Source of the DNA: Nakazawaea peltata
Lineage: Eukaryota; Ascomycota; Pichiomycetes; Alaninales; Pachysolenaceae
Length of the DNA: 64,000 bases
NCBI GenBank assembly: GCA_001599355.1
Contig: BCGQ01000001.1
Coordinates: 561,135 to 625,134 of the forward strand
Direction of reading: 5' to 3'
Position numbers and translations under genes: made by a program. The notes under the pieces are model-generated. The model was given only the letters and a program-made list of their open reading frames with translations. It ran no database searches and was not told where the DNA came from. This document shows positions 8,334-63,942 of this stretch, in pieces (position 1 is the first letter of the stretch; each line of letters begins with the position of its first letter).

Positions 8334-9818
8334 ATGGCTGATTACTTGCTTTTCGAAGAGGCCACCGGTTATGCCGTGTTCAAGGTCAAATTGCAACAAG
8401 ATGATATTGGATCAAGATTGAAGGAGGTCCAAGAGGCCGCTTCTGACTTGGGTAAATTCAGTAAGTTGGTCGAGTTGGTTTCTTTTGCTCCATTCAAGGG
8501 TGCTGCTCAAGCTTTGGAGAATGCAAACGAGATCTCTGAAGGTTTGGTTTCTGACTACTTGAAGAGTGTCTTGGAATTGAACTTGCCAAAACTGTCCAAG
8601 AAGTCCAAGATTACCTTGGGTATCTCTGATAAGAACTTGGGTCCATCTATCAAGGAGGCCTTCCCATACGTTGATTCCGTTTCCAACGAAGTTATTCAAG
8701 ATTTGTTGCGTGGTATCAGAAACCATGGTCATAAATTGTTAAAGGACTTACAAGAGGGTGATAATGAGAGAGCTCAATTAGGTTTGGGTCATGCTTACTC
8801 CAGAGCTAAGGTTAAGTTCAGTGTCCAAAAGAACGATAACCACATCATCCAACTGATCGCTTTGTTGGATCAATTAGACAAGGATATCAACACCTTTGCC
8901 ATGAGAGTTAAAGAATGGTACGGTTGGCACTTCCCAGAGTTGGCTAAGATTGTTCCAGATAACTATGCTTTTGCCAGCTTAGTCTTGTTCATCAAGGACA
9001 AGGCTTCTTTGAACGAAGACTCTTTGCATGATTTGGCTGCCTTATTGAACGAGGATGCCGGTGTTGCTCAAAGAGTTATTGATCTGGCCAGAATTTCCAT
9101 GGGTCAAGATATCAGTGAACAAGACATGAACAATGTTTTGACTTTTGCTCAAAGAACCGTCTCTATCTCTGACTACAGAAAGCAATTATACAAATACTTA
9201 ACTGACAAGATGCATACTGTTGCTCCAAACTTATCCGAGTTGATTGGTGAGGTTGTTGGTGCTAGATTGATTTCCCATGCTGGTTCTTTGACCAACTTGT
9301 CTAAGCAAGCTGCTTCTACTGTCCAAATTTTGGGTGCTGAGAAGGCTTTGTTCAGAGCTTTGAAGACTAAGGGTAACACTCCAAAGTACGGTTTGATCTA
9401 CCATTCTTCCTTCATTGGTAAGGCTTCTGCTAAGAACAAGGGTAGAATTTCTAGATATTTGGCCAACAAGTGTTCTATCGCTTCCAGAATTGACAACTAC
9501 AGTGACGAACCATCTAATGTATTCGGTTCTATCTTGAAGAAGCAAGTTGAAGAGAGATTGGAATTCTACGACACTGGTAAGTCTCCAATGAAGAACAGTG
9601 ATGCCATCAAGGAAGCTTTGCTGTTATCTGGAACAAGTGCTAGCGACTTGGTCGAAGAGGCTCCTGTTGAGAAGAAGGAGAAGAAAGAAAAGAAGGAGAA
9701 GAAGGAGAAGAAAGAGAAGAAGGAAAAGAAAGAGAAGAAGGAGAAGAAGGAGAAGAAGAGAAAATCCGATGACGGTGAAGAATCTCCAAAGAAGAAGAAG
9801 AAGAAGTCTAAGGATTAA
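8334..9818 (+). CDS. NOP56: Box C/D snoRNP core protein Nop56
   Basis: A 494-residue protein nearly collinear with yeast Nop56 (Sik1). It begins YLLFEEATGYAVFKVKLQQDDIG without the last bases (N-terminal NOP5 domain), followed by a coiled-coil NOSIC region (GLGHAYSRAKVKFSVQKND) and the Nop RNA/15.5K-binding domain (SELIGEVVGARLISHAGSLT, LGAEKALFRALKTKGNTPKY). SAKNKGRISRYLANKCSIAS distinguishes it from Nop58. The tail is a run of KKE-type repeats, as in other eukaryotes. It guides rRNA 2'-O-methylation in the nucleolus with Nop1, Nop58 and Snu13. CTG at 8853 (codon 174) falls in HIIQ-x-IALLDQ where orthologues have Ala, supporting CUG=Ala. Confidence 0.97.
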   Translation: MADYLLFEEATGYAVFKVKLQQDDIGSRLKEVQEAASDLGKFSKLVELVSFAPFKGAAQALENANEISEGLVSDYLKSVLELNLPKLSKKSKITLGISDKNLGPSIKEAFPYVDSVSNEVIQDLLRGIRNHGHKLLKDLQEGDNERAQLGLGHAYSRAKVKFSVQKNDNHIIQLIALLDQLDKDINTFAMRVKEWYGWHFPELAKIVPDNYAFASLVLFIKDKASLNEDSLHDLAALLNEDAGVAQRVIDLARISMGQDISEQDMNNVLTFAQRTVSISDYRKQLYKYLTDKMHTVAPNLSELIGEVVGARLISHAGSLTNLSKQAASTVQILGAEKALFRALKTKGNTPKYGLIYHSSFIGKASAKNKGRISRYLANKCSIASRIDNYSDEPSNVFGSILKKQVEERLEFYDTGKSPMKNSDAIKEALLLSGTSASDLVEEAPVEKKEKKEKKEKKEKKEKKEKKEKKEKKEKKRKSDDGEESPKKKKKKSKD

Positions 9819-10014
9819 CTCTGCTGATCTTTTGTTTCCCCCATTTTCTGTATTTTATAATATCCAAAGTTACCTCGAGCTAATTTTGAATCCGTTTTTC
9901 AAGCATACATATAGATCAAACATCGATATTGTTTGTCTTTAAACCTTTATTTTTAAGTTTATTCCGTTTCATATTGCCACGTATATACTCTCATAAAATT
10001 AACCTAATGGTCTC

Positions 10015-13322: not shown

Positions 13323-13454
13323 TTAATGATATATATAGAAATAAAACATATTAAGTATTTATTGAACAAATATAAAAAACGACTCGATATTCGAATGGTA
13401 AAACTCAACTAATACCATCCAATCATCGGTCAAGAACTAGATATTCGAGACAGT

Positions 13455-16400
13455 TTAAGCCTTAGAGGCCAACTCCTCCAATAATTTGAAATTACGCTTC
13501 TCAATAGAACCGTTTCCTGGTAAGACACTGGAACCCATCAAGTAGTTATCAACTTCACGAGCACATTGTCTACCTTCTTGGATACCCCAAACGACCAAAG
13601 ATTGACCACGTCTACAATCACCAGCAGCAAACAAGTTATCGTCAGCAGCCACTCTGTAACCAGTTGGGTTAGCAGTAGTGATAGTACCACGAGGAGTACG
13701 TGGGGCCAAATTCTCAGCTTCTGGACCAACGAATCCCATGGATAATAAGACGACATCGGCAGGGTAGAATTCCTCAGAACCAGCAACCTCGGCCATCTGC
13801 CAAGCTCCACTCTCGGATTTCTTCCACTCGACTCTGACAGTCTTGATACCCTTGACATTACCTTCACCATCGTCGACAAACTCCTTGGACAAGATACAGT
13901 ACTCTCTTGGGTCCTTACCGTAATGTTCCTTGACCTCAGCATGACCATAGTCGACTCTGAAGATTCTTGGCCATTGAGGCCATGGATTGTCTTTAGCACG
14001 AGCAGCTGGTGGGTGAGGTAACAACTCAAAGTTGGTGACAGACTTGGCTCCATGACGAGTAGCAGTACCCAAACAATCGTTACCGGTATCACCACCTCCA
14101 ATGACAACTACATGTTTACCTTCCAATTGCTCTCTGATCTCAGGCAAGTTGTCATCCAACAAAGCCTGAGTGTTAGCCTTCAACAATTGCATAGCGAACA
14201 TGATATTGTTCAAACCACGGCCTGGGATTCTCAAATCTCTGGCAATGGTGGACCCAAGAGCAAAGACAACGGCATCGTTGTTCAGTTTCAACTCGTCAAC
14301 TTGGATATCTTCACCTACAGTAGTATTACATACGAATTCTACACCTTCGGCAGCCAATAAATCGGTACGACGCTTGACGATACGCTTGTCCAACTTCATA
14401 TTTGGAATACCGTACATCAACAATCCACCTGGTCTGTCGGCTCTTTCGTAGACGGTGACTTTATGACCGGCTCTGTTCAATTGGTCGGCACAAGCCAAAC
14501 CAGCTGGACCAGATCCAATCACAGCTACAGTTTTACCGGAACGAACTTGAGGTGGTCTTGGTTTGATCCAACCTTGGGCGAAACCATGGTCAATGATAGC
14601 AGCCTCGACAGACTTGATACCGACTGGATCCTCATTGATACCCAAGACACAAGCACCTTCACAAGGAGCTGGACAAATTCTACCAGTAAATTCTGGGAAG
14701 TTGTTGGTCATCAACAATCTTTGTAAAGCATCGAACCATCTGTCTTTGAAGACCAACTCGTTCCATTTAGGAATGACGTTGGAGATCGGACAACCGTTGT
14801 CAGAGGTACAGAATGGAACACCACAGTCCATACAACGAGCAGTTTGATATTTCAAGTCTTCCTTGGTAAGACGCAGAGACAACTCGTTCCAGTCCTTGGC
14901 TCTTTCTTTACTTGGTCTGTACTTTTCGGCACGACGTTTGTACTTCATGAACCCTCTGACCTTATCCAAGTTTTGGGATCTCTTGGACTCCAGCTTGATA
15001 TCCAAGATGGTGTCTTCAACGTCCAAAACCTTTGGTTCAGAAGAGGCAACCTTGGAAGAGATGACTCTCTTTTGTTTCAAGATCTCTCCGTTGGTGATGT
15101 CGGCTTCTGGATCTTCTTTGATGGCATTCAAGAAGGTGTTAACTTCCTTCTTTTTGGCCAATTCCTTCTGAGCCTTCTCTTCCTCCAAAACTCTCTTGTA
15201 ATCGGTAGGTAAAACCTTGACGAAACGAGGCAAGATACGGTTGAAATCGTTCAAGATACGGCCGGCAATCTCCGAGTTGGTGTAATGACGATGATCTTCG
15301 ATCAAACCTCTCAAGAAAGCAATCTCGACAGGGTCAGTGACTTGTAATAACTCGACAGTACCAGCATTGACCTTGGTCTCGAATTCTTGGCCAATGTCCA
15401 AGACATAAGCGATACCTCCAGACATACCAGCAGCAAAGTTACGTCCAGTGGATCCCAAGACAACTACACGACCACCAGTCATGTACTCACAACCATGGTC
15501 ACCACAACCTTCTACGACGGCAGTAGCACCGGAGTTACGAACGGCGAAACGTTCAGCTGCGATACCACGGATGAAAGCAGTACCGGAGGTGGCTCCGTAC
15601 AAACAAGTGTTACCGATGATGATGTTCTCCTCGGCCTTGAACTTGGAGTCCTTTGGTGGGTAGACAATAAGACGACCTCCCGACAAGGATTTACCAAAGT
15701 AATCGTTGGCATCACCTACCAATTCCAAAGTGATACCTGGAGCCAAGAAGGCACCGAAAGATTGACCAGCTGAACCCTTGACGTTGACATGGACGGTGTC
15801 ATGAGGTAACCCGGCCTCACCGAACTTCTTGGAGATTCTGTACGACAAGGTAGCACCCAAGGCACGGTCTGTGTTGATGATATCACAGTCAATAGTGACA
15901 GGTAAACCTTTCTCCAAAGTGACCTCGGCCTCATCAACTAACTTGTTATCAAGACGAACATGTAAACGATGGTCTTGTTTCTTGATACATCTGGTAGCTA
16001 CACCTGGACGGATAGTATGAGCTGGAGTCAAAATTGGAGACAAGTCGATGTTGGCATTCTTGGTAGTACGTAAATCGTCACGGACTCTCAATTTCTCGGC
16101 ACGACCAACCATCTCATCGATAGTACGGAATCCCAACTTGGCCATGATGGTTCTCAACTCATTGGAGATGTAGTAGAACAAGTTAATGACATGCTCTGGA
16201 GTTCCTTCGAACTTCTTTCTCAACTCTGGGTCTTGAGTAGCAATACCTACTGGACAAGCACCGGTATGACATTTCTTCATCATGATACAACCTAAGGAAA
16301 GTAAAGGCAAGGTAGCCAAACAGTATTCTTCGGCACCAAGTAAACAAGCAATAGCGATATCACGACCGGTTCTTAAGTTACCATCGGTTTGGACAGCGAC

Positions 16401-19400
16401 TCTACCTCTCAAGTCGTTCAAGACCAAAGTTTGATGAGTCTCGGCTAAACCTAACTCCCAAGGTAAACCGGCATACTTGATACTTGACCATCTGGCAGCA
16501 CCAGTTCCACCGTCATGACCAGAGATCAAGATATGGTCGGCCTTGGCCTTGGCTACACCAGAAGCAATGATACCAACACCTACTTCCGAGACCAATTTGA
16601 CCGAGACACGGGCTCTTGGGTTAGCACATTTCAAGTCGTAAATCAACTGCTTCAAGTCCTCGATGGAGTAAATGTCGTGGTGAGGAGGTGGGGAGATCAA
16701 ACCGACATGAGGAGTCGAATGACGGGTCTTAGCAATCTCTCTGGACACTTTATGACCTGGCAATTCACCACCTTCACCAGGTTTAGCACCTTGAGCCATC
16801 TTGATCTGCAACTCATCGGCATCGGCCAAGTAGTACGAGGTGACACCGAATCTACCAGAAGCAACCTGCTTAATAGCAGATCTCATAGTATCTCCGTTGG
16901 CATTAACCGAGGATCTCTCTGGATCTTCTCCTCCCTCTCCAGTATTGGATTTAGCACCTAATCTGTTCATGGCTACAGCCAAGGTAGAATGGGCCTCCAT
17001 GGAGATAGAACCATACGACATGGCTCCTGTAGCAAAACGTCTGACAATCTCGGTCCAAGGTTCAACTTGGTCAATTGGAACCGAGGTGGAGTTCTCAAAA
17101 TCAAAGTCTAATAACCCACGTAAGGTACAGTTCTTAATAGCCTCATATTCCTTCTTGGAGTACAGCTCATACAGCTTCTCGTTCTTGTTACGGACGGCAT
17201 CTTGGATGTTAGCAATGGCAACAGGTTCATTAATATGAGCCTCCCCTCCATCTCTCCAATGATATTCTCCGGTCTCGGGTAACCCGATTTGTTTAACCGA
17301 GTCACGTGACGGGTATCCCCTTTCGTGCAATGAGAACAGGTCTTGAGCAATGTATTCGAAAGTTACACCTTTAATTCTGGAGGCAGTTCCGGCGAAACAT
17401 TTGTCGATGACCGAGTTGTCTACACCCAACAGTTCGAAAATCTGAGCTCCCTTGTATGAGGCCAATGTACTGATACCCATCTTGGACATAGTCTTCAAAA
17501 TACCCCCATCGATCGAGTGCTTGTAGTTTTCGATAATTTGCTCATCGGTTAACTCGTCTCTGATCAAACCTTCCAGGTTCATTCTGAGCAAGGTTTCCAT
17601 GGCCAAGTAAGGGTTGATGGCGTCGGCACCGTAACCGAGTAAGACACAGATGTGGTGGACTTCTCTTGCTTCGGCAGTTTCGACGATCAAGGCTACTTTG
17701 GAACGTAATTTTTGTCTGACCAAATGGTGGTGGACGGCACCGACGGCGATTAAAGCCGAGACCGATACACGGTTTTCACACACGGCACGGTCGGTCAAGT
17801 TGATGATCTGATGGTTCTCGGCAATGGCCTCGGTGGCCTCCTCACAGATACGGTCGATCAGTTCGGTGTATCCATTCAATCCTTCAGCTTTATCAAAAGT
17901 GATATCAATGGTAGCACTAGACCATTTAGGATAAACTTTGGAGATGTGTTTCAAGGCATTGAATTCTGGGATGGTCAAGATTGGAGATGGCATCAATAAT
18001 CTGTTACATTGCTCTGGTTTCATCTCCAAGATATTACCTTGAGGACCAATGTAACATTCCAAAGACATGACGATCTCTTCTCTGATTGGATCAATTGGGG
18101 GGTTAGTGACTTGGGCAAATAATTGTCTGAAATATTCGTACAATAATTTTGGTTGCTCGGATAAACAGGCCAACAGAGAGTCGTTACCCATGGAACCTAA
18201 GGCCTCTTTACCGTCTTGAGCCATTGGAGCTAACAATAATAACAATTGTTCGTGAGAATATCCAAAGGCTTTTAATCTCTCGTCACTTTGGACGGTGACT
18301 TCCGAAGGTAAGACCGGGTTCAATTGGTCGGTGGAGATGGATTTGGTCTCCAATTTGGCAAATAATTCAGGCATGGTGATCATATTAGCCAAGATCCAAG
18401 ACTTGAAGTCGACTCTAGAAGCCACTTTATTCTTCAATTCACGGTCATCTACAATTCTACCTTCTTTAGTGTCTACTAATAACATACGACCAGGTTGTAA
18501 ACGACCCTTCTGGATGATTCTTTCAGGTTCGATTGGAATGACACCAACTTCAGAAGCACAGATGATACGGTCATCGTCGGTTACATAGTATCTACAAGGT
18601 CTTAAACCGTTACGGTCCAAGTTGGCACCACAATATCTTCCATCGGCAAAGGTGAAAAGAGCTGGTCCATCCCAAGGTTCCGACAAACAAGCGGCCCATT
18701 CGTAAAATGCTTTTCTTTTTGGGTCAATGTTCGGGTTATTTTGCCAGGCTTCTGGTACCAAGACCATGATGGCCTCAGGCAAAGACAATACTCCGTTAAT
18801 GACCAACAATTCCAAAACATTATCCAAAGCAGCCGAATCGGATCCTCCCTCCTCAATGATCGGATACAATTTGTCCAACTCGTCCCCGAATAGCTTCGAC
18901 AGCATCACACCTTCTCTGGCTCTCATCCAATTTTTGTTACCCCGCAAAGTGTTGATTTCACCGTTGTGCGCAGCCCATCTCAAAGGTTGGGCTCTGTCCC
19001 AAGATGGGAAAGTATTGGTGGAGAATCTGGAGTGGACAAGGGCAAAGTGGGCCTCGTAGTCGGCATTGACTAAGTCATGGTAGTAGTTGTAGACTTGCAG
19101 TGGGACCAATTGACCTTTGTAAACGATATTCTTGGTGGACAACGAACAAATGTAGAACCAATTGTGTAATCCAATGGTGTGAGTCGATTGCTTACGTAAG
19201 ATGTACAATTGTCTTTCGAATTTTTTCGAGTATTGAGACTCAAAGTCTGCGTCGGAAATTGGTAAAGGTTTGTTATCTGCTCCGTAGGCTTCTTCCAAGA
19301 CAACGGCTGGTTGTAAGATCAAAGGTTCTCTTGATAAGGCGGCTGGACCTAAGATGGTTGAATCATGAGGGACTTTTCTCCAACCTAAGACTCTTAAGCC

Positions 19401-19826
19401 GAGGGATTTGGCGATATTTTCAAAAGTTGATCTCGATTTCTCAAAAACGGTCTCGTCACTTTTGAAGAAGAGATTTCCTACGGCGTATTGACCTAAAGCA
19501 GGTAATTCAACTTTGCAGAAAAATTCAAACTCTCTCTTCATGAATTTATGAGGGATCGAGGTCATGACACCGGCACCATCACCATCTCTGGCATCGGATC
19601 CAACAGCACCTCTATGGGTCATGTTACATAATAAGAATCTTGCGTCGGAGACGATTTTATGTGAGACATCTCCCTTGATGTGACAGGCAAACCCAACACC
19701 ACAAGCATCTTTTTCTAATTCTGGGTTATATAAACCTTTTGCGGTTGGTAAAGCAGAGGCCCAACTCTTGTTGGTAGCACTCTCATCGTACTGGTAAACG
19801 GAGTATTCTTCTCTTTCTTGTTCCAT
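13455..19826 (-). CDS. GLT1: NADH-dependent glutamate synthase (GOGAT), single-chain
   Basis: A 2123-residue protein, the usual length for eukaryotic GOGAT, with no break. It starts at the ATG at 19826; a GTG slightly upstream was rejected. After a propeptide of about 41 residues comes the amidotransferase Cys of DACGVGFACH. Then follow the class II glutaminase domain, the FMN/synthase domain (GHDGGTGAARW), a 3Fe-4S motif (CHTGACPVGIA), the GXGXG alpha-subunit domain, an Fe-S domain (CMDCGVPFC), the FAD site GSGPAGLACADQLNRAGH and the NADH site GGGDTGNDCLGT. It makes two glutamates from glutamine and 2-oxoglutarate with NADH, in the GS-GOGAT route of ammonium assimilation. Codon bias indicates strong expression. 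Other-frame open stretches are shadows. Confidence 0.97.
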   Translation of the reverse strand: MEQEREEYSVYQYDESATNKSWASALPTAKGLYNPELEKDACGVGFACHIKGDVSHKIVSDARFLLCNMTHRGAVGSDARDGDGAGVMTSIPHKFMKREFEFFCKVELPALGQYAVGNLFFKSDETVFEKSRSTFENIAKSLGLRVLGWRKVPHDSTILGPAALSREPLILQPAVVLEEAYGADNKPLPISDADFESQYSKKFERQLYILRKQSTHTIGLHNWFYICSLSTKNIVYKGQLVPLQVYNYYHDLVNADYEAHFALVHSRFSTNTFPSWDRAQPLRWAAHNGEINTLRGNKNWMRAREGVMLSKLFGDELDKLYPIIEEGGSDSAALDNVLELLVINGVLSLPEAIMVLVPEAWQNNPNIDPKRKAFYEWAACLSEPWDGPALFTFADGRYCGANLDRNGLRPCRYYVTDDDRIICASEVGVIPIEPERIIQKGRLQPGRMLLVDTKEGRIVDDRELKNKVASRVDFKSWILANMITMPELFAKLETKSISTDQLNPVLPSEVTVQSDERLKAFGYSHEQLLLLLAPMAQDGKEALGSMGNDSLLACLSEQPKLLYEYFRQLFAQVTNPPIDPIREEIVMSLECYIGPQGNILEMKPEQCNRLLMPSPILTIPEFNALKHISKVYPKWSSATIDITFDKAEGLNGYTELIDRICEEATEAIAENHQIINLTDRAVCENRVSVSALIAVGAVHHHLVRQKLRSKVALIVETAEAREVHHICVLLGYGADAINPYLAMETLLRMNLEGLIRDELTDEQIIENYKHSIDGGILKTMSKMGISTLASYKGAQIFELLGVDNSVIDKCFAGTASRIKGVTFEYIAQDLFSLHERGYPSRDSVKQIGLPETGEYHWRDGGEAHINEPVAIANIQDAVRNKNEKLYELYSKKEYEAIKNCTLRGLLDFDFENSTSVPIDQVEPWTEIVRRFATGAMSYGSISMEAHSTLAVAMNRLGAKSNTGEGGEDPERSSVNANGDTMRSAIKQVASGRFGVTSYYLADADELQIKMAQGAKPGEGGELPGHKVSREIAKTRHSTPHVGLISPPPHHDIYSIEDLKQLIYDLKCANPRARVSVKLVSEVGVGIIASGVAKAKADHILISGHDGGTGAARWSSIKYAGLPWELGLAETHQTLVLNDLRGRVAVQTDGNLRTGRDIAIACLLGAEEYCLATLPLLSLGCIMMKKCHTGACPVGIATQDPELRKKFEGTPEHVINLFYYISNELRTIMAKLGFRTIDEMVGRAEKLRVRDDLRTTKNANIDLSPILTPAHTIRPGVATRCIKKQDHRLHVRLDNKLVDEAEVTLEKGLPVTIDCDIINTDRALGATLSYRISKKFGEAGLPHDTVHVNVKGSAGQSFGAFLAPGITLELVGDANDYFGKSLSGGRLIVYPPKDSKFKAEENIIIGNTCLYGATSGTAFIRGIAAERFAVRNSGATAVVEGCGDHGCEYMTGGRVVVLGSTGRNFAAGMSGGIAYVLDIGQEFETKVNAGTVELLQVTDPVEIAFLRGLIEDHRHYTNSEIAGRILNDFNRILPRFVKVLPTDYKRVLEEEKAQKELAKKKEVNTFLNAIKEDPEADITNGEILKQKRVISSKVASSEPKVLDVEDTILDIKLESKRSQNLDKVRGFMKYKRRAEKYRPSKERAKDWNELSLRLTKEDLKYQTARCMDCGVPFCTSDNGCPISNVIPKWNELVFKDRWFDALQRLLMTNNFPEFTGRICPAPCEGACVLGINEDPVGIKSVEAAIIDHGFAQGWIKPRPPQVRSGKTVAVIGSGPAGLACADQLNRAGHKVTVYERADRPGGLLMYGIPNMKLDKRIVKRRTDLLAAEGVEFVCNTTVGEDIQVDELKLNNDAVVFALGSTIARDLRIPGRGLNNIMFAMQLLKANTQALLDDNLPEIREQLEGKHVVVIGGGDTGNDCLGTATRHGAKSVTNFELLPHPPAARAKDNPWPQWPRIFRVDYGHAEVKEHYGKDPREYCILSKEFVDDGEGNVKGIKTVRVEWKKSESGAWQMAEVAGSEEFYPADVVLLSMGFVGPEAENLAPRTPRGTITTANPTGYRVAADDNLFAAGDCRRGQSLVVWGIQEGRQCAREVDNYLMGSSVLPGNGSIEKRNFKLLEELASKA

Positions 19827-21000: not shown

Positions 21001-21099
21001 CATATCTATACTTACTACAAGGCTCATTCGAAGGCTCACTCCGTCTACTATCACGCTCACTCCATCTACTATCACTATCTACTCATCCATTTATTACAT

Positions 21100-22722
21100 C
21101 TACTCATCCTCCCATTCCTCATCAACAACCTCCCCCTCATCATCATCCTCATCTTCATCTTCCAATGCTGTAGAAACTTCCATAATAGTCTCTTTAGTAT
21201 TCTCATCATACTTATTAACAATCCTAGAAGCCAGTGCAACTTCTCTAGCCTTAGCTTTCAAATCTCTCAACTCATTCTTGAACGATGTTCTAACACTTCT
21301 GTTGGTAAATACATCCCACATCTTTAATCCACTAGAAGCTCCACCAATTACAATATTACCCAGGACATCCAAGTCTGGAGCAAACGAAGCTGTCAATGTG
21401 TTACCACATCCAAAGTCTCTGGAAAGCAACATCGAAGGTCTAGAATTGTTCAGGATCTTCCATACTTTAGTTTGTTTCTCTCCCATAGCTCCAGTGACAA
21501 TCATACCTTCGACAAATTGGTTGATTTCTAAGATGGAAATTCCGGCATCATGCAGATGTAAAGTCCATAACGGTTTGTCCTCGACTCTGACATCGAAACA
21601 GTAAATGTTACCCTTGTCGGTACCAGCATAAATGACTGAGGAATCGTTACCGAATTTGACGGTCTCTACATCCTCACCATTGTTGACTTTATAATGCTTA
21701 GACATCTTGGAAACATCGGTGATTCTAACATCCGACAACAGCATACTAGAATCATAACCACCAGTCAATAAAATAGACAGATCTTGTGGACACCATTGAG
21801 ATGAAGAGACATGCTTTTTGGAATGAATCAAATCCATAGATCTAACCAGTTGTTCAGTCTTTAATTCCCATAATTTGACGGTCAGATCAGCAGAAGTAGA
21901 CAGTAATACAGATCTGTGAACTTTGTTATGAGCTAACGATAGTACCGCATCAGTATGGTGTGTGGTAACATGAGCATTCTTACTCTTCTTCTTTCCCTTT
22001 TTACCCTTGCTAATACTGCTTCCACTCATATCACCCAAGATAATATCAGGGAATGATTTGTCTACATAATCCAAATTCCAGATCTCAATAGTTGGGTCGA
22101 ATGAACCCACCAGGGCAAAGTTACCAATGTCATTGCTTGGGTCCTCGGATTTCGAGTTGAAATTGATCCATTCAACACAAAGAGGGAACAGCGGTAACAT
22201 CATATCGTGATGGACATACAAACTTGGCTCTCTGACCTCATCTCCTTCTTGACCATCATCGTAAACGTAGACATCCAAATAAGAGACATCGTCTTCGGTT
22301 CTAGTGGACAAAACTAAGTTGTCAGTTGGATAAACTTGCATTTCTTCCTTCTCTTCTTGTTCTTCTTCCTGTGTAGGTAACGAAATGTATGGGTCAGTAC
22401 CTTCTTCATCGTCTCCATCATGGAATTTGGCGTCAGATTTAGCTAAACTTGGGAACATATGTAAGGCAGATCCTGCGGTATGAACTTCATCATCATCATA
22501 ATGTTCCAAATCGTATTCCTTTAAGTCATCATCGATTTCAATTTGAGAAGAGAGGGTCTGTTTTTGTTCTGGTTCTTCAGCCTCGGCCATCGATGCCCTC
22601 AGATCGGTAATCTGCAAATTGGCCATCTCGGCTAATTTGTCCAATTCGTCTTCAGTAGGTTCATATTTTTCTGGGAATTCTTTTGCAAATCCTCTAGGGA
22701 CCCAGGTGGATGAAGAAATCAT
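21100..22722 (-). CDS. PWP1: Ribosome-biogenesis WD40 protein Pwp1
   Basis: A 540-residue protein starting at MISSSTWVPRGFAKEFPEKY (ATG at 22722); the frame extends only to a TTG beyond that. The acidic N-terminus with DDLKEYDLEHYDDDE, the YISLPTQEEEQEEKEEMQVY block and DNLVLSTRTEDDVSYLDVYV are specific to Pwp1. WD repeats follow from about residue 190 (HHTDAVLSLAHN, STSADLTVKLW, LWDVFTNRSVR-like MWDVFTNRSVR). The protein works in 25S/5.8S pre-rRNA processing in the nucleolus. CTG at 22189-22191 (codon 178, MLP-x-FPLCVEW) and 21901-21903 (codon 274, RSVL-x-STSAD) match Ala in the yeast protein. The C-terminus is acidic, as in orthologues. Confidence 0.95.
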   Translation of the reverse strand: MISSSTWVPRGFAKEFPEKYEPTEDELDKLAEMANLQITDLRASMAEAEEPEQKQTLSSQIEIDDDLKEYDLEHYDDDEVHTAGSALHMFPSLAKSDAKFHDGDDEEGTDPYISLPTQEEEQEEKEEMQVYPTDNLVLSTRTEDDVSYLDVYVYDDGQEGDEVREPSLYVHHDMMLPLFPLCVEWINFNSKSEDPSNDIGNFALVGSFDPTIEIWNLDYVDKSFPDIILGDMSGSSISKGKKGKKKSKNAHVTTHHTDAVLSLAHNKVHRSVLLSTSADLTVKLWELKTEQLVRSMDLIHSKKHVSSSQWCPQDLSILLTGGYDSSMLLSDVRITDVSKMSKHYKVNNGEDVETVKFGNDSSVIYAGTDKGNIYCFDVRVEDKPLWTLHLHDAGISILEINQFVEGMIVTGAMGEKQTKVWKILNNSRPSMLLSRDFGCGNTLTASFAPDLDVLGNIVIGGASSGLKMWDVFTNRSVRTSFKNELRDLKAKAREVALASRIVNKYDENTKETIMEVSTALEDEDEDDDEGEVVDEEWEDE

Positions 22723-23105: not shown

Positions 23106-24434
23106 ATGTCAGGATCTGATAAGAACCCCTCCGGTAATGAGGGCGCCAACAAAAAAACCATCGAAGATTTACTTAAAATGTTGGCTATGGGTAACGAATT
23201 GACTAAAGAACAAAGAAAGACCATGGAAGATTACAAGTTTTGGAAGACTCAACCTGTTCCTAAATTTGATGAAAGTATCGAGAAGGAAGGTCCAATTGAT
23301 CTGGAGAAGAAACCTGAGGATGTCCGCTCCGAACCTTACGGATTATTACCTGATTTCGAATGGTGTGATTTGGATATCACCGACTCAGCCGAATTGCAAG
23401 AATTGTATCAATTGTTACATGAGCATTACGTTGAGGATAAGGATGCTACTTTCAGATTTAACTATCCTCCAGGGTTCTGTGAATGGGGTTTGAAGCCTCC
23501 TGGATGGTTAAAAGAATGGCATGTTGGGATTAGAGTGAAATCTTCTCGTAAATTGGTTCTGTTCATCAGTGCTATCCCACTGACTTTGAAGGTTCATGGT
23601 AAGCAGATCAAGAGTGTCGAGATCAACTTCCTTGTTGTTCATAAACAGTTACGTTCCAAGAGATTACTGCCTGTATTGATTAAGGAGATCACCAGAAGAG
23701 TTAATAAGAAGGATATTTGGCAACTGTTATATACTGCTGGAGTTGTCTTGCCATCTCCAGTCTCGGTTTGTCGTTATAATCATAGACCTATCAACTGGTC
23801 TAAATTGTATGATGTTGGGTTTTCTCATCTTCCTCATAATGCCACTAAACTGCAAATGATCGCCAAGTATCTGTTGCCTTCAGAGACCAAAGTAGCCAAT
23901 TTGAGAAAATTAGCTAAAGACGATTTATCCCAATGTTACGAATTGTTCATGAAATATCAAGAACGTTTTGAGATTGTCCAAGATTTCACTTTGGAAGAGT
24001 TCTCTCATTGGATGTTGGGTAAAGATTCTGTCATTCAATCGTATGTAGTTGCAACTCCAGAGGGTAAAATTACCGATTTCGTATCTTTCTTCTTATTACC
24101 ATTCACCGTTTTGAACAACCCTGAACATGACCAGTTAAATATCGCATATTTGTTCTATTATCTGACTGACTCTGACGATTCGGCAAAGAGATTGACCGAG
24201 TTGGTCGGCGATGTCTTGGTCCTCGCAAAGAACTTGAAAATCGATGTGTTCAATGCTCTTACTTCTCAAGAGAACAATTTGTTCTTACAAAATTTGAAGT
24301 TCAGTGAAGGTGATGGGCTTCTTAATTTCTACTTATTTAACTACAGATGTAGAAAGATCCATGGAGGTATTGATAAGGAGACCAATCTGGTCACCTCTAA
24401 CAAGACCAGTGGAGTTGGAGTCGTATTGTTATAA
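23106..24434 (+). CDS. NMT1: Glycylpeptide N-tetradecanoyltransferase (N-myristoyltransferase)
   Basis: A 442-residue protein collinear with yeast Nmt1. Recognisable blocks are [24 protein letters not shown], the myristoyl-CoA-binding [18 protein letters not shown] and [33 protein letters not shown] and the C-terminal catalytic end GVGVVLL. It transfers myristate to N-terminal glycines and is essential in yeasts. It is the richest source of code evidence: CTG at 23559 (KLV-x-FISAIP), 23580 (AIP-x-TLKV), 23724 (DIWQ-x-LYTAG), 23871 (x-LPSETK) and 24162 (FYY-x-TDSD) all fall where orthologues carry Ala or small residues. It shares a divergent promoter with PWP1. Confidence 0.96.
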
Positions 24435-47744: not shown

Positions 47745-50378
47745 ATTGTTCTTTCAACGTGTAACCATATAAGAAGGTGGGAGCAGTAGATATCGTATTC
47801 AATTTGACAGCTCCAAACTATTCATATATCTGTCCTACACGTATCGTTAAGTCTATCGTTAGATGTATTGGTCGTGTAATCCCGGTGTATCTCCCCTTAT
47901 CTTATCGGCGTCTATTTCAAATAAACAGATCCCGTACTGATTAAAGATAGATAAACACTTTTCCCTAGCAAAAAAATTTTTTTTCAACGATAAAATTTTT
48001 TTTGTTCCTAATCTTTTCTATGCGTACGTCTGTGCGCTTAGGAGGATTGTAAATGGATGGAATTGTTATGCAGCAGTGGCGAGGTGGGGGGTTAGATGAG
48101 AGATATGAGAGGGGGAATGAGAGGGGGAGATATGGGGGATATGGGGGAATTTATGGGGTGGGACATGAGGTATGAGACGGTTATGTGGTTATGAGGTGGG
48201 CTATAAGGATCTAGAGATTAACAGGTATTCCTTCGTCAGCTGAACTCTGGCTAGATTTATCGCTCTAGATTTTGCTCACTATCTCAATAGTCTCTTCAAA
48301 TCATGCGAGTCATCACCCTTCAATCGTACGTTAAGCAGGAGACATAATTCGTGCATGAAAACTCAAAATTGTACGGTATTATCTTTTAGTACACTACCTA
48401 ATTTAGAACACCTATTTTAGAAAGGAAAAAATCCTATGTTCTTGGTTTTTAGGGACGGCATTGAAAAGGCTGCGATAAATAATCATAAGATTTCAAAATG
48501 CACTCAAGATATCCTAATACTAATAATTATTAAACTATGGCCTAGACCTAATATTATCATAAATATTGCCACTCTATTTGGAAAGGGTCCAGTGTAAAGT
48601 GGTGGCAACCTAATTGTGGCCATCTTGCTTAAGAAATCTCTTATCTTTGAAGATTGTCTGCAAAAAATTATAGTACACATGTTGAAATATTACAACGAAC
48701 ACTTGAAATGGGGCTGCTGTTATCTGTACCATATTGTTCGGCTAGGTATAGATACTTCTGGATTTGAGTATTGCACTATCACCGCACTCTATATTCAGCA
48801 AAAGTCGCTTTCTTAAGCTAGTTTTTGCGGGGCGACTACTGCCTGAAAACTAACTTCACTCTTCATATTATTTATACGTGAAGTTTAAAGTTAAAACACT
48901 CTCAAGATAATTAATACTTGTGCGCAGAACAATTCTTCTCTAATTTATTAACCATTCAATAAAATTACTCTTTGGTAACTGGTTCAAGATGTGATGTCCC
49001 TTCTGAACAATATCAGACTTCTCCCGGGGCCAATTTAAAAGTAATATTTGATTTTCCCACATAGCTTAAAATGTAGAATTCTTGGGCATAAATTATAGTC
49101 ACCGAAATTAGTTATCTACTAATGCTTAATGACCGTTATTAAACCGTCCACTATATCGGATTTCATCTGAGCTCATCTCTAGTAGTGATAGCGGAATACA
49201 TCGTAATAGTATGCTCTATTTGGGAATAAATAGTGTCATCCATACTATAATCAAAGTGCGATATTCACGATGCATGACGTCAAACCCTGCGCGCATAGGT
49301 GCATAGTTCTCTGCACCATCGGCAAATTCAAAAACTGCGCGGACTCTCTGTGACACTAACTCGATGAGCACAAAAAGGAAGGAAAAAAAGACCAAATTCG
49401 ATACAAAATCCCACGGGTAAAAATCTCTAACAATAAGACCAGTAATAAAGAAAAATACGTTATTGTAGCCCCTGAAACATGGATTTCGCTACAGCATCGA
49501 GTCCGTCCGTAGACTTGAACTCCGTCGACACACTTTACTTCGTTGATTGAGGAATTTCAAAACTCGTTCCAACCCTGCTACTTGACTACCAGTCACTCAC
49601 TCCCCGCTTTTTATCTTCACTGTTAATTTCTAAAAGATTTCATGTGGGGAGGATTAAAAAAATAGTGTGTGCCTTAAAATGATTCATCATAGATTACAGG
49701 ATTCTGTGGTGTGTGATCGACGGCATTTTCAGCTCAGTATTTATGACATTCTGCACTTGTAATTAAGGTTCAAGACTAGTAGACTCTAGCTAAGTTGTAG
49801 TAAACAAAAGATGTAAATACGGAATTCTAACAGCACCTAGTTAAGGTTAACCAACCGACATAGTTCACGTCCTAAAAAGAAAAGATTGTCTTGAAAAAGA
49901 TGAATGAACAAACTTGAAAAGCATTTCATGTTAAGGGAAAGCACGGGGTCATCTCTTTTAGCCTCAGCAGCTACTACTCAGCTAAATGGTTACTAGTATC
50001 AGTTTCGGAAATCCACTGTATTTGATTCCACACTTCTTTTCGATTTTAACAGGACGTCCCCCAAAACTCCCGTAGTGACTATGCATGAGGGGCTATATGT
50101 GACTGCAGTGACTTTGACATCTCGTAGTCTAGGAGGGCCACTCCCGCAATTTCCTCTGCGCTACCGACGGGCGGAGATATTTTTGAAGGGTTTCTTCTGT
50201 GGGCCTGAGGATGACAGTGACACTGTCATAATTTTTAAAATGCAATTCTATGCACCAAAAATTAAGCCGTGCATCAACGCCCCGTTTCAAAAATCAACTA
50301 TTTTTTGTAGCCACTTCTTGTTTGTGGTATATCACTTGCAGTTATAGAGTGATCCACACTAAAATTCTCAGCGCCCAA
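47745..50378. other. Gene-poor tract, 2.6 kb
   Basis: Apart from GATA sites, RRPE-like A/T blocks at 47970-48005 and a G-rich tract (AGAGGGGGA and ATGGGGGAT repeats, 48100-48170), nothing is recognisable. Open frames up to 90 codons look random. Between about 48200 and 50370 base order lacks the poly-purine tracts typical of promoters elsewhere in the window. Confidence 0.55.
47896..47906 (-). promoter_or_regulatory. Overlapping GATAAG sites upstream of the GATA factor gene
   Basis: On the plus strand CTTATCTTATC gives two GATAAG sites on the minus strand, about 155 bases upstream of the start codon. Further GATA cores lie at 47948-47952. This suggests auto- or cross-regulation by GATA factors, as known for DAL80. 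Confidence 0.5.
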
Positions 50379-51068
50379 ATGATTAGATCATTGTTATCGC
50401 CTCGTTGGTTGATTTTATTCTCAGCGCTCATATTCCAAAGCCCAGTAGTATTAGGAACCCCTCCCGCCTGTCTTTTGGCCTGTGTAAACCAATATGCCAG
50501 ATGGTGCAATAGAGGTCATCAGGATATGAATTGTTTCCGGATCAATGGTGAAATGATGGTGGAATGTTTCCTGGAACAGTGTTTATCTACCGATTTCTTT
50601 GCAGCGAGGGATCATTTTTGGGGTGTTTTAGAAGAATTCCCATATTTGGGACATAAACCCCCAAAATATGGATATCGTAAACCAAAGGAGACAACTGAAT
50701 CTGGCATGGAATCTACAATTATAATGGATCCACAAGAAACTCCACAAGAATATCCCCCAGAAACCCACCAAAAATCTTCTCAAGAGCCTTCTCAATCTGA
50801 TCCTCTCTATCCCTCCAGTAAGAATAAAAACGTGCAAGATCCTGAAACACCCCTCTTGAAAGTAAATCAGTCATTGAATATCACCCCTCAAGATGAAGAA
50901 TTAGAAGAAGAAGATCTGTCACAACTCAAGTATTCCTTAGAATTGCCCAATGAAATCATAACTCCTCACTCCTACAGAGACGAACTCAAGAAATTGAAAA
51001 CCAATCATTATTTCACCAGGTTCACCAAGAAACTACCTCATCAAGGGCCAACTCAACTCACTACATAG
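50379..51068 (+). CDS. Secreted Cys-rich protein of unknown function (CFEM-like spacing)
   Basis: A 229-residue protein from MIRSLLSPRWLILFSALIFQ; the frame is open upstream, but this ATG gives a good signal peptide cleaved near VVLGTPPA. The mature N-terminus has six cysteines: CLLAC, WC, NC, EC and QC, with the C-x3-C-x7-C opening and C-x4-C closing of CFEM-like domains, but it lacks the central C-x-C pair, so it is not a standard CFEM. The rest (about residues 95-229) is Pro/Glu/Ser/Gln-rich and hydrophilic with no GPI signal. I know no orthologue. It lies alone in the gene-poor tract and converges with the Ada-type gene. Confidence 0.6.
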   Translation: MIRSLLSPRWLILFSALIFQSPVVLGTPPACLLACVNQYARWCNRGHQDMNCFRINGEMMVECFLEQCLSTDFFAARDHFWGVLEEFPYLGHKPPKYGYRKPKETTESGMESTIIMDPQETPQEYPPETHQKSSQEPSQSDPLYPSSKNKNVQDPETPLLKVNQSLNITPQDEELEEEDLSQLKYSLELPNEIITPHSYRDELKKLKTNHYFTRFTKKLPHQGPTQLTT

Positions 51069-51272: not shown

Positions 51273-52934
51273 TCAATGCAAGGCCTCTAACGGATCAATG
51301 TTAGTTAAATCAAAATATCCGTACGAGTTCAAGTCAAAGTTGAGTGGAGTCTGGATGTATTCACCAGTATCACTGTTAGCTCTGCCTGTGTTAACGTTAC
51401 CAAAGAATTTGTTGTTCGTGGAGTTGGCGTTAAGGTTCATAGGCGATTGGCTATTGAAGGTATTGTTGAAGTTGTTGGTCTGAGCAATTTGAATATCGGT
51501 CAAGTCCAATGAAAAGTTCTCAGGCAAAAATAATTCGCTGGAGAGATCTTTGGTATTTGAAAGATCCAAAGTTGAAGTCAATGGATATGTGCTCAGAGTT
51601 CCAGTCAAAGGAACAGTTGGCATCATTGGAATGTTCGATAAGTTGTCTTCAAGCAAAGGCTGCAGCAATGGAACAGTGTTAGTCAAGTTCATGTTAGCCA
51701 CATCAGCATTGAATGTGCTGTCAAAGGCTGAAAGATCAAATTGCATCTCATCTCTGAGAGGTAAATTCACCTGAGACAGAGATGGGATCATCGAATATTG
51801 TCCAAAATTCACTTCTGGTTTTTGAGTAATAGCAGGAGAAGTATAGCTCTTTCCTGATACGTAGTTCATCGATTGAGGAGTGGTGACGAAATCGTCAGCG
51901 GTCGAAGAGAATGGAGAGCCACGGTTTGGATCAGAATCTTCTGGAGAGAAAATATCACCATCCTCAGTCTTGAAAGCTGATTTGGAAGACAGTTTAGAAA
52001 TCAGAGAATGGTTACGAGAAGAAGCAGATTTGGAGTTTCTTCTCAGAGCATTCAATTGTTCCTCAGCTGGTGAAGAAGTAGGGTTACTGATATTGGTACT
52101 AATGGTGATAGCTTTTTGGGAAGAAAAGCTTCCATGTTGATCGATATGCTTCTTTACGATATCAAAACATTTGTCACCATATACTTTTGGAGTCAATCCA
52201 GTGACACTCTTGAAAACTCTGTGGAAATGCCATGGGGACAACTTGGACTTAGAGGCCAATTCTTTGAATCCCAAGACACCTCCTCTTCTCCGTCTCTTCT
52301 TACCACCAGTGATTCTCTCTTCCAACAGTTGTTGTTCTTGTTCCATCAGTTGTCTTTGTTGCTTCTTTACGATATCAGTTTGATCTTCATGAACTTGAAC
52401 TGCTGTGGAAGCAGCAGCCAAAGCAATATGACGACAAGCCAAATCGACAAGCTTAACATGGTCAGTTTCATTCTTAGAAACAGAAGACGATGTGTTCTTC
52501 GACAAGGAATCATGTCCATTCAAATGGATGGCAGGAACAGAGCCTCTTCTCAGTTTACTCTTCTTCAAAATGGATTGTCTGATAGTCTCAGAGAGAGGAT
52601 CCTCATCGTCCAATGGAGGTGTGAATCCAATTTGTTCGTTAACGGTGGCCACAGTGTTAATTAATAAACTAACATCAATCGAAATAGCATTCAAGTCATT
52701 GTTATCATTAGGAATTAAACAGTGAGGACACTTGGTGTAACCACTGTTGACAGCCTCTTCAATGGTGTCAGCGAACTTGATCTCTGACTTCAAGCTTGTT
52801 TGGATGCTCAAGTCACAGTTAGGACGACAACATGTCTTGGTGGTCTTATTGCATACAATAAACTTGTCGGAGGCAAATGGATCGTTGAACTGATAAGCGT
52901 TCCACTTTGAGTTATCAGATGAATAGCACAGCAT
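51273..52934 (-). CDS. Ada-type regulator: methyl-phosphotriester zinc domain plus AraC helix-turn-helix
   Basis: A 553-residue protein. Residues 1-72 match the bacterial Ada N-terminal domain: FIVCNKTTKTCCRPNC and, about 30 residues on, KCPHC, giving the four zinc-binding cysteines, one of which in E. coli Ada accepts methyl groups. A basic stretch KKRRRRGG precedes one AraC-type HTH, GFKELASKSKLSPWHFHRVF with GLTPKVYGD, near residues 228-265. The C-terminal 290 residues are Ser/Asn/Thr-rich with acidic and hydrophobic patches, resembling a yeast activation domain. There is no alkyltransferase domain. Such Ada-derived factors occur in filamentous fungi and some yeasts but not S. cerevisiae. 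Its long upstream region is notable. Confidence 0.85.
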   Translation of the reverse strand: MLCYSSDNSKWNAYQFNDPFASDKFIVCNKTTKTCCRPNCDLSIQTSLKSEIKFADTIEEAVNSGYTKCPHCLIPNDNNDLNAISIDVSLLINTVATVNEQIGFTPPLDDEDPLSETIRQSILKKSKLRRGSVPAIHLNGHDSLSKNTSSSVSKNETDHVKLVDLACRHIALAAASTAVQVHEDQTDIVKKQQRQLMEQEQQLLEERITGGKKRRRRGGVLGFKELASKSKLSPWHFHRVFKSVTGLTPKVYGDKCFDIVKKHIDQHGSFSSQKAITISTNISNPTSSPAEEQLNALRRNSKSASSRNHSLISKLSSKSAFKTEDGDIFSPEDSDPNRGSPFSSTADDFVTTPQSMNYVSGKSYTSPAITQKPEVNFGQYSMIPSLSQVNLPLRDEMQFDLSAFDSTFNADVANMNLTNTVPLLQPLLEDNLSNIPMMPTVPLTGTLSTYPLTSTLDLSNTKDLSSELFLPENFSLDLTDIQIAQTNNFNNTFNSQSPMNLNANSTNNKFFGNVNTGRANSDTGEYIQTPLNFDLNSYGYFDLTNIDPLEALH

Positions 52935-58343: not shown

Positions 58344-59777
58344 TTAATACTCAGCAAGGTACTTATTCAAAGTATCTCTCTTAATAGTGTTCTCAAATTT
58401 GAAAGAAGCAGCTAACTCTTCCAAGTCTTCAAAGGACAAATCTTTGAAGTAGTCAGCAAATTCATGGGTCAAGTATTGAGAAAGCATGATCTCTCTTAAG
58501 ACTCTGTTAACATAATGATCAATGGACCAAGTCTTAGGGTACAATCTCTTTTGGAATTCTTCTGGGATGACCTCTCTGAAATGATCTTTGACAGCGTCAT
58601 AGACCAGTTCATATTTAGGGTCGGCATCTCTACCCCATTGGTCAATTCCGAGCTTTCTCTTCTTCAAGAGGAAATCACCCAAAAGTTGGAACCACTTCGA
58701 TTTAGGGGATACATAGGTAAGACCTTGGTATCCGATATCTTTGTAGACCCAAATGGAGAAACCAACAGCAGCACCATCTCCAGAAGGATCACCACTCTTG
58801 TAAATTTGCAATTGATCTTTCAAGACCTGGTATCTTCTTTCGTTGGTGGCTTCAATGTCGGTATCACCTCTTACTTCAGAAGCATAGACAGGACCGAATT
58901 CTCCATTCCAAACAGGAACTCCAGTCTTCTTCAGGTACTCGATCTTTCTCTCGTATTGTCTCTTCAACTTCAGCAATTCTTCATCGGAAGAAGTATAGAT
59001 GTAACCATCCTTGGAAGGGAATCCATACTTGGAGTAATCATGAATAGCAATGACAGAGTTAGGGAATGGAGTATCTGGGAAATGAGTGAAATCAGCAGAA
59101 TAAGTGTTACCATCCAAGAACAAAATATGGTCTGGGTCAACTTCTCTGATGGCCTTCTCCACTCTGTTATAGAAAGATAACAAACGATGATGTTTGGAGT
59201 CGGCTGGCTCATTCAATGGGTTGTAACCAGCAATCCATTCATTTCCCAGGTAATGTTTGGCCAATTCGACCCACAAGTTGACAACGGCATCTTGGAACAC
59301 CTTAAATTCCCAGAATAACAGCTTATGAATACCAGAGTCGGCATGCCAGTCCTGGTTCTGTCCACCTGGAGTAGCATGTAAATCCAAGACAACATAAATC
59401 TTATGTTTAGCACAGATATCAACCATACGGTCCAACAATTTGAAACCTTCCTCTTTGATCTTGAAAAGATCACCATCGTCATCGATGAAATGTCTGTAAT
59501 TGAAAGGAATTCTCAAACAGTTCAAGTTGATACTGGTGAAGAATTCAGCATCAGCATCGGTCCAGAAGTATTCATAGAATTTGTCAAAGAAGTAATTGAA
59601 CTTCTCCTCACCCAAGACAGACTTCAACTCCCTCTTATGCTCGGTCTCATGACCTGGATAACCAGTGATAAAGTTTTCCATGTTCATGTGACCACCAGTG
59701 GCGGTACCTTTCAATACTACTGGCTTGCCAGTAGCAGAATCGACGATTTTAGTTCCCTCAACTTTAAGAATACCCAT
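58344..59777 (-). CDS. Cytoplasmic exo-beta-1,3-glucanase-like protein, GH5 family (YBR056W type)
   Basis: A 477-residue protein without a signal peptide. The N-terminus GGHMNMENFITGYPGHE matches the yeast YBR056W group rather than the secreted Exg1. GH5 features are LNCLRIPFNYRHF, VVLDLHATPGGQN, the acid/base Glu in GYNPLNEPAD and the nucleophile Glu in WNGEFGP. A helical extension follows the barrel. The substrate is not established; steryl-glucoside or beta-glucan hydrolysis is possible by family resemblance. Codon bias suggests fair expression. The ATG at 59777 is the only suitable start. Confidence 0.88.
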   Translation of the reverse strand: MGILKVEGTKIVDSATGKPVVLKGTATGGHMNMENFITGYPGHETEHKRELKSVLGEEKFNYFFDKFYEYFWTDADAEFFTSINLNCLRIPFNYRHFIDDDGDLFKIKEEGFKLLDRMVDICAKHKIYVVLDLHATPGGQNQDWHADSGIHKLLFWEFKVFQDAVVNLWVELAKHYLGNEWIAGYNPLNEPADSKHHRLLSFYNRVEKAIREVDPDHILFLDGNTYSADFTHFPDTPFPNSVIAIHDYSKYGFPSKDGYIYTSSDEELLKLKRQYERKIEYLKKTGVPVWNGEFGPVYASEVRGDTDIEATNERRYQVLKDQLQIYKSGDPSGDGAAVGFSIWVYKDIGYQGLTYVSPKSKWFQLLGDFLLKKRKLGIDQWGRDADPKYELVYDAVKDHFREVIPEEFQKRLYPKTWSIDHYVNRVLREIMLSQYLTHEFADYFKDLSFEDLEELAASFKFENTIKRDTLNKYLAEY

Positions 59778-62050: not shown

Positions 62051-62454
62051 GTTACCTAACACGGTAAGTACCCAATATGGAATTCAAAAATCCCAACCTC
62101 AACCGCTCAAAATCACGAAAAAAACACAAATTTGTAAATAATTAGCATATAAATACATTTAACGTATCGATACCAACGTTATAGTAGACCACATCGCATC
62201 GGCGCTGTTGATTAATCAATTGTAATCAGCTCGTGTTGCCGAATATTGTCAATTGATTGATCTTTCTCCATCGTTTGAACCGTCTTCATTCACACCACGG
62301 CTAGTGATTCGCACAGCCCCTGTTTTACCCAAAACATACACTCCACAAAATATTTGGTGTATTTTCCAACTCGAATTTCGATTGTTTTTCAAAGCTTGAA
62401 AGTTCGGGATAAGGAGCAGTCTGAGGTTCCATCAGCATACACAGTGAGAAGATA
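62051..62454. other. Intergenic region upstream of SGF73
   Basis: 404 bases without a gene. ACAGCCCC at 62313-62320 is the reverse complement of the GGGGCTGT core that forms the arrays around PWP1. Confidence 0.5.
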
Positions 62455-63942
62455 ATGTCCAAGAGGGTACCTGGAGGCCAACAGATAGTATTGAAAGTAT
62501 CTGATGATATAATTCAGAGATCATTGGGAGCCGAATCTAACAAAGTAATCACCGATATTAAGTCAAACGACAGCGAGAGAAGTGAAGATATCGAATCATT
62601 TTATAGTGGGAAACTCAACTGGAAAGATCTTGGTCTGTTTTTAGAGAATTTGAAAGCCGTCGATAACTCTGATCATAAGAGCATCAAATCCAGTTTACCG
62701 GTTGGAGGTTTAAAGAACAACTTATTGACAGCTCCATTGAGCTACAGAATCTGCAAGTCTTGTAAAAAACCCATTTTAGAATCGCATTTATTAGAACATA
62801 TAGATATTTGTGAGGAAGTCATGAGAACTAAACAGGCCACGAAGGATCGGTCTAAGTCACTGAAAGCATCTAAGAATAATGTTGATGGTGTTGGAGCCAC
62901 AACCAATACCAAGAAGAAGAGAAAGAATGCCGCATCTTCTGCGTATGATACGGCAGGGGAATCCACAAAGGAGAGTACTCCAGTGGCCGGACCAACTCCA
63001 AAGAAACAGAAGAAACTGCCTAAGGAGAAGAAAGCAAAGAAAGAAAAGGCCAAGAGTACACCAAAACCAAAGGAACCAGTTGATGTTGAGAAACAGTGTG
63101 GTGTTGCTTTACCTGGAGGTGGTTTCTGTGCGAGATCTTTGACTTGTAAAACACATTCTATGGGTGCTAAAAGACTGGTTCCAGGGAGATCTGCTCCTTA
63201 TGATCAGTTATTACTGCAATATCAACGTAAAAACCAAGCCAAGATCGCCGCGGGTGCTGCTCTGCTGCAGCTGCTGCAAGATGAGTTACTCCATGGTTCT
63301 CTGGGTCCTTTGGATGAAGATGAAGAGACCCAGTTGGTGATTGAAGGTGTATCGAGATCTTATGCATTACCTCTTGAAAGGAAGGTGATCATGCCTACCA
63401 GATTAAGATCCAAATTCTTGAGAATGAGAGAAATGTTTGCTGGTGCATTATTACCAAGAGTTGGAAATTCATCTTCAAATACCAGTATAGAGGGAAGAAC
63501 TCTGGTAGTTGATGTGGATCGTCCTAATGAATATTTCCATCTGGTAAGACCTCCGCAGAGAGTGGCTATAAGTCAATTACAGCAACATTATCTGCAACAG
63601 CAGCAATTACAGCAGCAACAGTTACAGCAACAACAGCAACAACAACAGAAGCTGAACTCTCTCCAACAACAAGGGCAACTGCAACCTCAACAAGTGCAAC
63701 AACAAATACCCCAGCAGCAGCTAACTCAACAAGCTCAACAGCAGCAAAAACAACAGCAGCAACAGCAACAACAAATGCAACAATTACAGGCATCTCAGTT
63801 GACTCCAGAACAACAGCAGATGTTGCTTCAAAGACAGCAACAACAAAGACGTCTGCAATTACTCCAACAGCAAAGATTACAACAAATGCAGCTGCTGCGT
63901 CTGCTGCTGGTTCTGCAACAGCAACAGCTGAAATTTAGGTAG
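62455..63942 (+). CDS. SGF73: SAGA deubiquitination-module subunit Sgf73 (ataxin-7 orthologue)
   Basis: A 495-residue protein. An N-terminal zinc finger (CKSCKKPILESHLLEHIDIC, residues about 97-116) and the SCA7 domain (CGVALPGGGFCARSLTCKTH, SMGAKRLVPGRSAPYD, residues about 213-253) are both present, separated by a Lys-rich linker. Sgf73 anchors Ubp8-Sgf11-Sus1 to SAGA and aids H2B deubiquitination. CTG at 63214 (YDQLL-x-QYQRKNQ) matches Ala in the yeast protein. The C-terminal 120 residues are Gln-rich; the many CTG codons there make it a Gln/Ala tract under the CUG=Ala code instead of Gln/Leu. Stop TAG at 63940-63942. Confidence 0.92.
   Translation: MSKRVPGGQQIVLKVSDDIIQRSLGAESNKVITDIKSNDSERSEDIESFYSGKLNWKDLGLFLENLKAVDNSDHKSIKSSLPVGGLKNNLLTAPLSYRICKSCKKPILESHLLEHIDICEEVMRTKQATKDRSKSLKASKNNVDGVGATTNTKKKRKNAASSAYDTAGESTKESTPVAGPTPKKQKKLPKEKKAKKEKAKSTPKPKEPVDVEKQCGVALPGGGFCARSLTCKTHSMGAKRLVPGRSAPYDQLLLQYQRKNQAKIAAGAALLQLLQDELLHGSLGPLDEDEETQLVIEGVSRSYALPLERKVIMPTRLRSKFLRMREMFAGALLPRVGNSSSNTSIEGRTLVVDVDRPNEYFHLVRPPQRVAISQLQQHYLQQQQLQQQQLQQQQQQQQKLNSLQQQGQLQPQQVQQQIPQQQLTQQAQQQQKQQQQQQQQMQQLQASQLTPEQQQMLLQRQQQQRRLQLLQQQRLQQMQLLRLLLVLQQQQLKFR

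Follow-up and report, generated by a model that had tools for sequence, protein, structure and literature searches.

A 64-kb stretch of budding-yeast nuclear DNA in which CUG is, almost certainly, translated as alanine

The translation of CUG as alanine in nuclear genes of budding yeasts is already known, and is represented by NCBI translation table 26, which applies to Pachysolen, Nakazawaea and Peterozyma. A 2018 survey describes three nuclear reassignments of CUG in budding yeasts, and gives Nakazawaea, Peterozyma and Pachysolen as the alanine clade (PMC5951914); in NCBI taxonomy, Nakazawaea and Pachysolen belong to the order Alaninales. The same codon has been reassigned in the Candida (Ser1; table 12) and Ascoidea/Saccharomycopsis (Ser2) clades, but there its amino acid is serine. 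Ascoidea rubescens, listed as a CUG-alanine species in a 2017 review (PMC5499181), was corrected to CUG-serine by mass spectrometry in 2018 (PMC5951914). In the mitochondria of Ashbya, leucine-box codons have likewise come to specify alanine, but these are CUU and CUA (PMC3874161), and the reassignment is mitochondrial, unlike that of the nuclear CUG considered here. In a later screen of 462 yeast species, the meaning computed for CUG is reported to match the established clades in 453 (PMC8629427).

The window, i.e., the whole stretch of DNA analysed, is 64 kb long and has a G+C content of 40.6%. Its 29 open reading frames (ORFs) of at least 150 codons were reduced to 26 by excluding three that overlap others; the Pfam domains found among these 26 include NMT, Nop, SET with SRI, SCA7, a Zn2Cys6 regulator, GH16 and a fused GLT1. 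The 26 ORFs contain 248 in-frame CTG codons, or 18.0 per 1000 codons. A first-pass annotation had proposed that CUG means alanine here, naming CTG codons in six genes, and all 13 coordinates it gave are indeed CTG in the frame of the named gene. Its 12 supposed alanine sites are, however, a favourable selection from the 248, and we therefore replaced them with a tally of every scorable CTG. Taken together, the CTG-encoded positions behave as alanine positions across unrelated genes. Thus, we conclude that the window almost certainly comes from the nuclear genome of a budding yeast in which CUG stands for alanine, according to table 26. This code was chosen by three tests, namely the residues facing CTG in ten genes, a bacterial profile of glutamate synthase, and Pfam scores; in the first two CTG fits alanine columns above all other 19 residues (in the second, among the best 80 of 592 matching stretches), while in the third, where only Ala, Ser and Leu were compared, alanine is preferred.

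For the residue-facing test, one top-scoring PDB relative was aligned to each of ten genes, the six named ones among them, and 4498 aligned residues were scored. The relatives were found with a standard-code translation, with low-complexity tails excluded; because the query was in the standard code, the choice of relatives is not biased toward alanine. This alignment scored 77 of the 105 CTG codons in these genes. The 28 dropped are 9 in the tail of the casein kinase 1 (CK1) gene after residue 218, 11 in the SGF73 tail after residue 371, 3 in GLT1 beyond the searched stretch, HEM1 98 and SET2 4 beyond the alignments, SET2 548 (the first domain was cut at 500), and NMT1 428 and GLT1 656, which fall on gaps; cutting NOP56 after residue 432 lost none. 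Substitution frequencies learned from the remaining codons were then used to rank the 20 residues as the meaning of CTG.

Alanine is by far the most frequent partner of CTG, at 30 of the 77 sites, followed by Gln (7), Glu (6), Lys (5), Val, Thr and Leu (4 each), Arg and Pro (3 each), Asn, Gly, Asp, His and Ser (2 each), and Met (1). Alanine also ranks first by score, with a lead of 63 bits over Gln, 85 over Ser and 198 over Leu. In the control, each of the other codons represented by five or more sites was handled as though its meaning had to be inferred, and 52 of 53 return the standard one, the single miss being ACG (5 sites, by 1.2 bits); CTA, with just three aligned sites, is outside these controls. 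With well-conserved surroundings only, alanine is still best at 49 CTG sites, and the controls are right in 47 of 47 cases. Alanine is chosen in 1989 of 2000 bootstraps over sites and 1980 of 2000 over genes, and when each gene is left out in turn (SET2 as two pieces) it always stays first, by a margin of at least 34 bits.

The CTG sites nevertheless differ from those of GCN. Alanine lies opposite CTG less often (30/77) than opposite GCN (158/281; Fisher p = 0.010), and among the non-alanine partners Glu, Lys, Gln and Arg are enriched (21/47 for CTG versus 26/123 for GCN, p = 0.004), whereas Ser, Gly and Cys are depleted (4/47 versus 43/123, p = 0.0004); these p values are optimistic, since the comparisons were picked after the counts were known. 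A plain reading is that many CTG codons occupy tolerant sites, and that the one-mutation neighbours of CTG (CAG, GTG, CCG and CGG) are not those of GCN.

Four of the ten genes lie outside the list of the first-pass annotation. GLT1, encoding glutamate synthase (13455-19826, minus strand), contains 12 CTG codons. In the SFA1-like gene for a class III alcohol dehydrogenase (3400-4536, minus strand), CTG 189 is opposite Ala and CTG 214 opposite Lys. The five CTG codons of a GH5 glucosidase gene (58344-59777, minus strand) face Ala, Ser, Arg, Gln and Lys, one each, in an alignment that is weak (35% identity). In the HRR25-like CK1 gene (29686-30732, minus strand, as listed), CTG 74 (30511-30513) lies opposite the alanine of the sequence DFGLAKKYRD in each of the two alignments shown, and CTG 180 is opposite Arg. 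Scored by single relatives, the 17 sites of these four genes place alanine first, with Gln 1.5, Ser 9.3 and Leu 20.5 bits behind, and one of 44 controls misses; in 2000 bootstraps each over sites and over genes, alanine comes first in 855 and 1076, respectively. Because this subset alone is not decisive, we built a bacterial GLT1 profile as a stronger test. The profile draws on the best 80 of 592 matching stretches, from bacterial glutamate synthase loci; CTG was masked in the query, pseudocounts were set by hand, and all 12 CTG codons were scored column by column. In these best 80 of 592, alanine is first by 10.2 bits over Glu and Thr, 12.6 over Ser and 24.1 over Leu, and 46 of 46 controls are right. 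Two of the sites, CTG 656 (17859-17861) and CTG 799 (17430-17432), fall in bacterial columns that are 70% and 85% alanine, respectively.

To compare Pfam scores, all 26 proteins were scanned with CTG as Ala, and 20 of the 26 also with CTG as Leu and as Ser (tables 26, 11 and 12, respectively). Scores were summed over 28 hand-picked domains, one family per stretch, omitting overlapping lesser families, stretches with an unchanged score, and PWP1; two of the 28, GATA and Med26, have no CTG within the reported stretch. In total, alanine scores 21.4 bits above Ser and 77.4 above Leu; over the 18 domains outside the genes of the first-pass annotation, its leads are 10.3 and 37.7 bits, respectively. 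The NMT domain, for example, scores 253.1 bits as Ala, 246.7 as Ser and 238.4 as Leu. Domain by domain, the best code is Ala in 15 cases, Ser in 10 and Leu in 3, and no Ser or Leu lead over Ala exceeds 1.3 bits. PWP1 was omitted because its WD40 families contradict one another: THOC3 scores 73.8, 67.8 and 63.0 bits as Ala, Ser and Leu, and Prp19 scores 45.1, 42.7 and 66.1.

Site by site, the six named genes bear out most of what had been claimed for them. The annotation had put 12 CTG codons at alanine sites, and yeast reference chains, which we take to be from S. cerevisiae, cover 11. Nine of these face Ala (NMT1 152, 207, 256 and 353; NOP56 174; SET2 233; PWP1 178 and 274; SGF73 254), although in the top-scoring relative SET2 233 is opposite Pro and SGF73 254 opposite Val; the other two are NMT1 159 and HEM1 221. 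In the NMT1 orthologue (23106-24434, plus strand; 9 CTG), the codons at 23559, 23724 and 24162 are opposite Ala in all five alignments shown. NMT1 159 is opposite Val in yeast, as had been said, but the further assertion that other orthologues have Ala there does not agree with the five alignments shown, of 44 matches, which have Val or Thr. In the NOP56 orthologue (8334-9818, plus strand), aligned to PDB relatives, CTG 87 and 174 are opposite Ala in the top relative, and the second relative has Thr and Gly at these positions; Asn lies opposite CTG 251, and Glu opposite CTG 430. The SET2 orthologue (37295-39493, plus strand) has 19 CTG codons, among which CTG 28 and 70 (the latter at 37502-37504) face Ala in every covering alignment shown; so does CTG 266 in both covering relatives, at a position beyond the coverage of the yeast chain. 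Its remaining CTG codons are mostly opposite polar residues.

In the HEM1 orthologue (43614-45398, plus strand), also compared with PDB relatives, CTG 181 (44154-44156) is opposite Ala in the five chains shown, two of which are versions of one enzyme, while CTG 221 (44274), which had been given as an alanine site, is opposite Gly. The clearest exception to alanine is HEM1 470 (45021-45023), which is opposite Leu in most chains, as had been noted before; Leu is kept in two of the three relatives compared, and the third has His. The PWP1 orthologue (21100-22722, minus strand) has 12 CTG codons, of which eight are opposite Ala and none opposite Leu or Ser. In the SGF73 orthologue (62455-63942, plus strand; 23 CTG), CTG 241 (63175-63177) is opposite Ala in the four relatives shown, and CTG 270, 271, 273 and 274 face an alanine run of the top relative.

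Among the alternatives, the one that survives best is ambiguous decoding, in which CUG would mean mainly alanine and a minority of sites would carry another amino acid, for example Leu or Gln. Allowing Gln beside Ala improves the fit by 15 bits over pure Ala; the improvement is 9 bits with either Glu or Lys as the second residue, and 2.4 bits with 5% Leu. However, 11 bits are gained without any second meaning when Ala is combined with a general background of mismatched residues, and once this background is allowed for, Gln adds 5 bits and Leu nothing. CTG at weakly constrained sites, a placement published for code-changing clades (PMC5951914), would explain the gain, and one substitution suffices to turn CAG into CTG. 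We consequently set Ala/Gln ambiguity aside as very improbable: a second amino acid is not needed, as most of the gain goes to the background, even if 5 bits are left over for Gln.

Somewhat less probable again is that CUG means serine, as in the Ser1 or Ser2 clades. Ala and Ser are readily interchangeable, and the 10 Pfam domains that score best as Ser include SRI, AWS, WW and DJC28_CD; yet Ser is opposite only 2 of 77 CTG codons, compared with 53% for true Ser codons, and serine loses to alanine by 85 bits in the ten genes, 12.6 in the GLT1 profile and 21.4 in Pfam. The standard reading as leucine, with the alanine-facing sites as chance substitutions, can practically be discounted: Leu does face HEM1 470 and SGF73 188 in reasonably aligned stretches, and SET2 617 and GLT1 885 in poorly aligned ones, but it is opposite CTG in just 4 of 77 cases versus 67% for other Leu codons, it trails alanine by 198 bits (ten genes), 24 (GLT1 profile) and 77 (Pfam), and the ten-gene test recovers TTA, TTG, CTT and CTC as Leu, but not CTG. 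That neither Leu nor Ser explains the set, as the first-pass annotation argued, thus holds for the totals of all three tests. With CUG translated as alanine, the Leu opposite HEM1 470 and SGF73 188 may be a relic or chance.

If CUG is alanine, CTG accounts for 248 of 1038 putative Ala codons (24%), the other 790 being GCN; GCG occurs only 20 times in the 26 ORFs, so that CTG is twelve times commoner. CTG thus seems common here, whereas clades with a changed code are said to use CUG relatively rarely (PMC5951914); we regard this high share as a mild oddity. Across the 26 genes, stronger codon bias goes with a lower CTG share (Spearman -0.52, p = 0.006, with a hand-set list of preferred codons). 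Among the 26 ORFs, SFA1, GLT1, NOP56 and the GH16 gene have few CTG codons (2.4 to 8.1 per 1000) and several regulatory genes have many, so that CTG acts as a non-preferred codon. The SGF73 orthologue has the highest density of all 26 (23 of 495 codons, 46.5 per 1000); about half of its CTG codons lie in a polyQ-rich tail, in which a CAG codon becomes CTG by one substitution. One possibility, which we hold tentatively and consider rather doubtful, is that CUG has re-expanded into an everyday alanine codon, conserved alanine sites included, yet has been kept low in codon-biased genes. If so, this would be a reassigned codon returning to ordinary use. The large CTG fraction could aid the study of how such a codon comes back into use.

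Alanine identity in a tRNA is marked by G3:U70. In the 64-kb window, no tRNA genes were found by ARAGORN or by Rfam at gathering thresholds. In the alanine clade, CUG is reported to be decoded by a novel CAG-anticodon tRNA derived from a tRNA-Ala gene, and Ala and Ser are argued to be easy targets of reassignment, as their synthetases do not require particular anticodon bases (PMC5951914). By analogy with that work, a tRNA-Ala with its anticodon mutated to CAG would read CUG here, the anticodon being dispensable for alanyl-tRNA synthetase, and the ancestral tRNA-Leu(CAG) would have been lost.

The first-pass annotation held that this code is not new, in agreement with table 26, and that it identifies the lineage; the latter claim draws on the literature, where Nakazawaea, Peterozyma and Pachysolen are placed in the alanine clade (PMC5951914). 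We infer that the organism belongs to the Alaninales, the order of these genera. The SGF73 orthologue scores 326 bits against 6tb4, which we take to be from Komagataella, of the sister Leu2 clade, and 138 bits against 6t9i, presumably from S. cerevisiae; these scores fit the Alaninales and do not place the genus. The G+C content appears higher than that of Pachysolen, and this would speak for Nakazawaea or Peterozyma. The window adds one supported stretch to a known nuclear sense-codon reassignment, and the choice of table governs every protein in it: the standard code would give Leu for Ala at about 2% of residues.

Several further features of the window were observed. Translated with table 26, four of the 26 ORFs match no Pfam family at E 0.001, namely those at 7241-7951 (plus strand), 25238-26875 (minus), 40338-42779 (plus) and 50250-51068 (plus). 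At a threshold of 0.01, the ORF at 40338-42779 has no Pfam match with CTG as Leu, and a weak methyltransferase match (E 0.0072) with CTG as Ser. The HRR25-like ORF is open in frame upstream to 30967 (29686-30967, minus strand), directly behind the end of an intron (TACTAAC...CAG); a short first exon that carries the first two bases of the start codon is therefore expected farther upstream. This extension contains two more CTG codons, of which, by comparison with kinase sequences, one would be opposite Ser and the other opposite Tyr or Met, not Ala. Finally, the ORF at 51273-52934 (minus strand) encodes an Ada-type zinc-binding domain and, after it, a weak AraC helix-turn-helix that falls short of the Pfam cut-off, the layout of a bacterial-looking regulator in a yeast.
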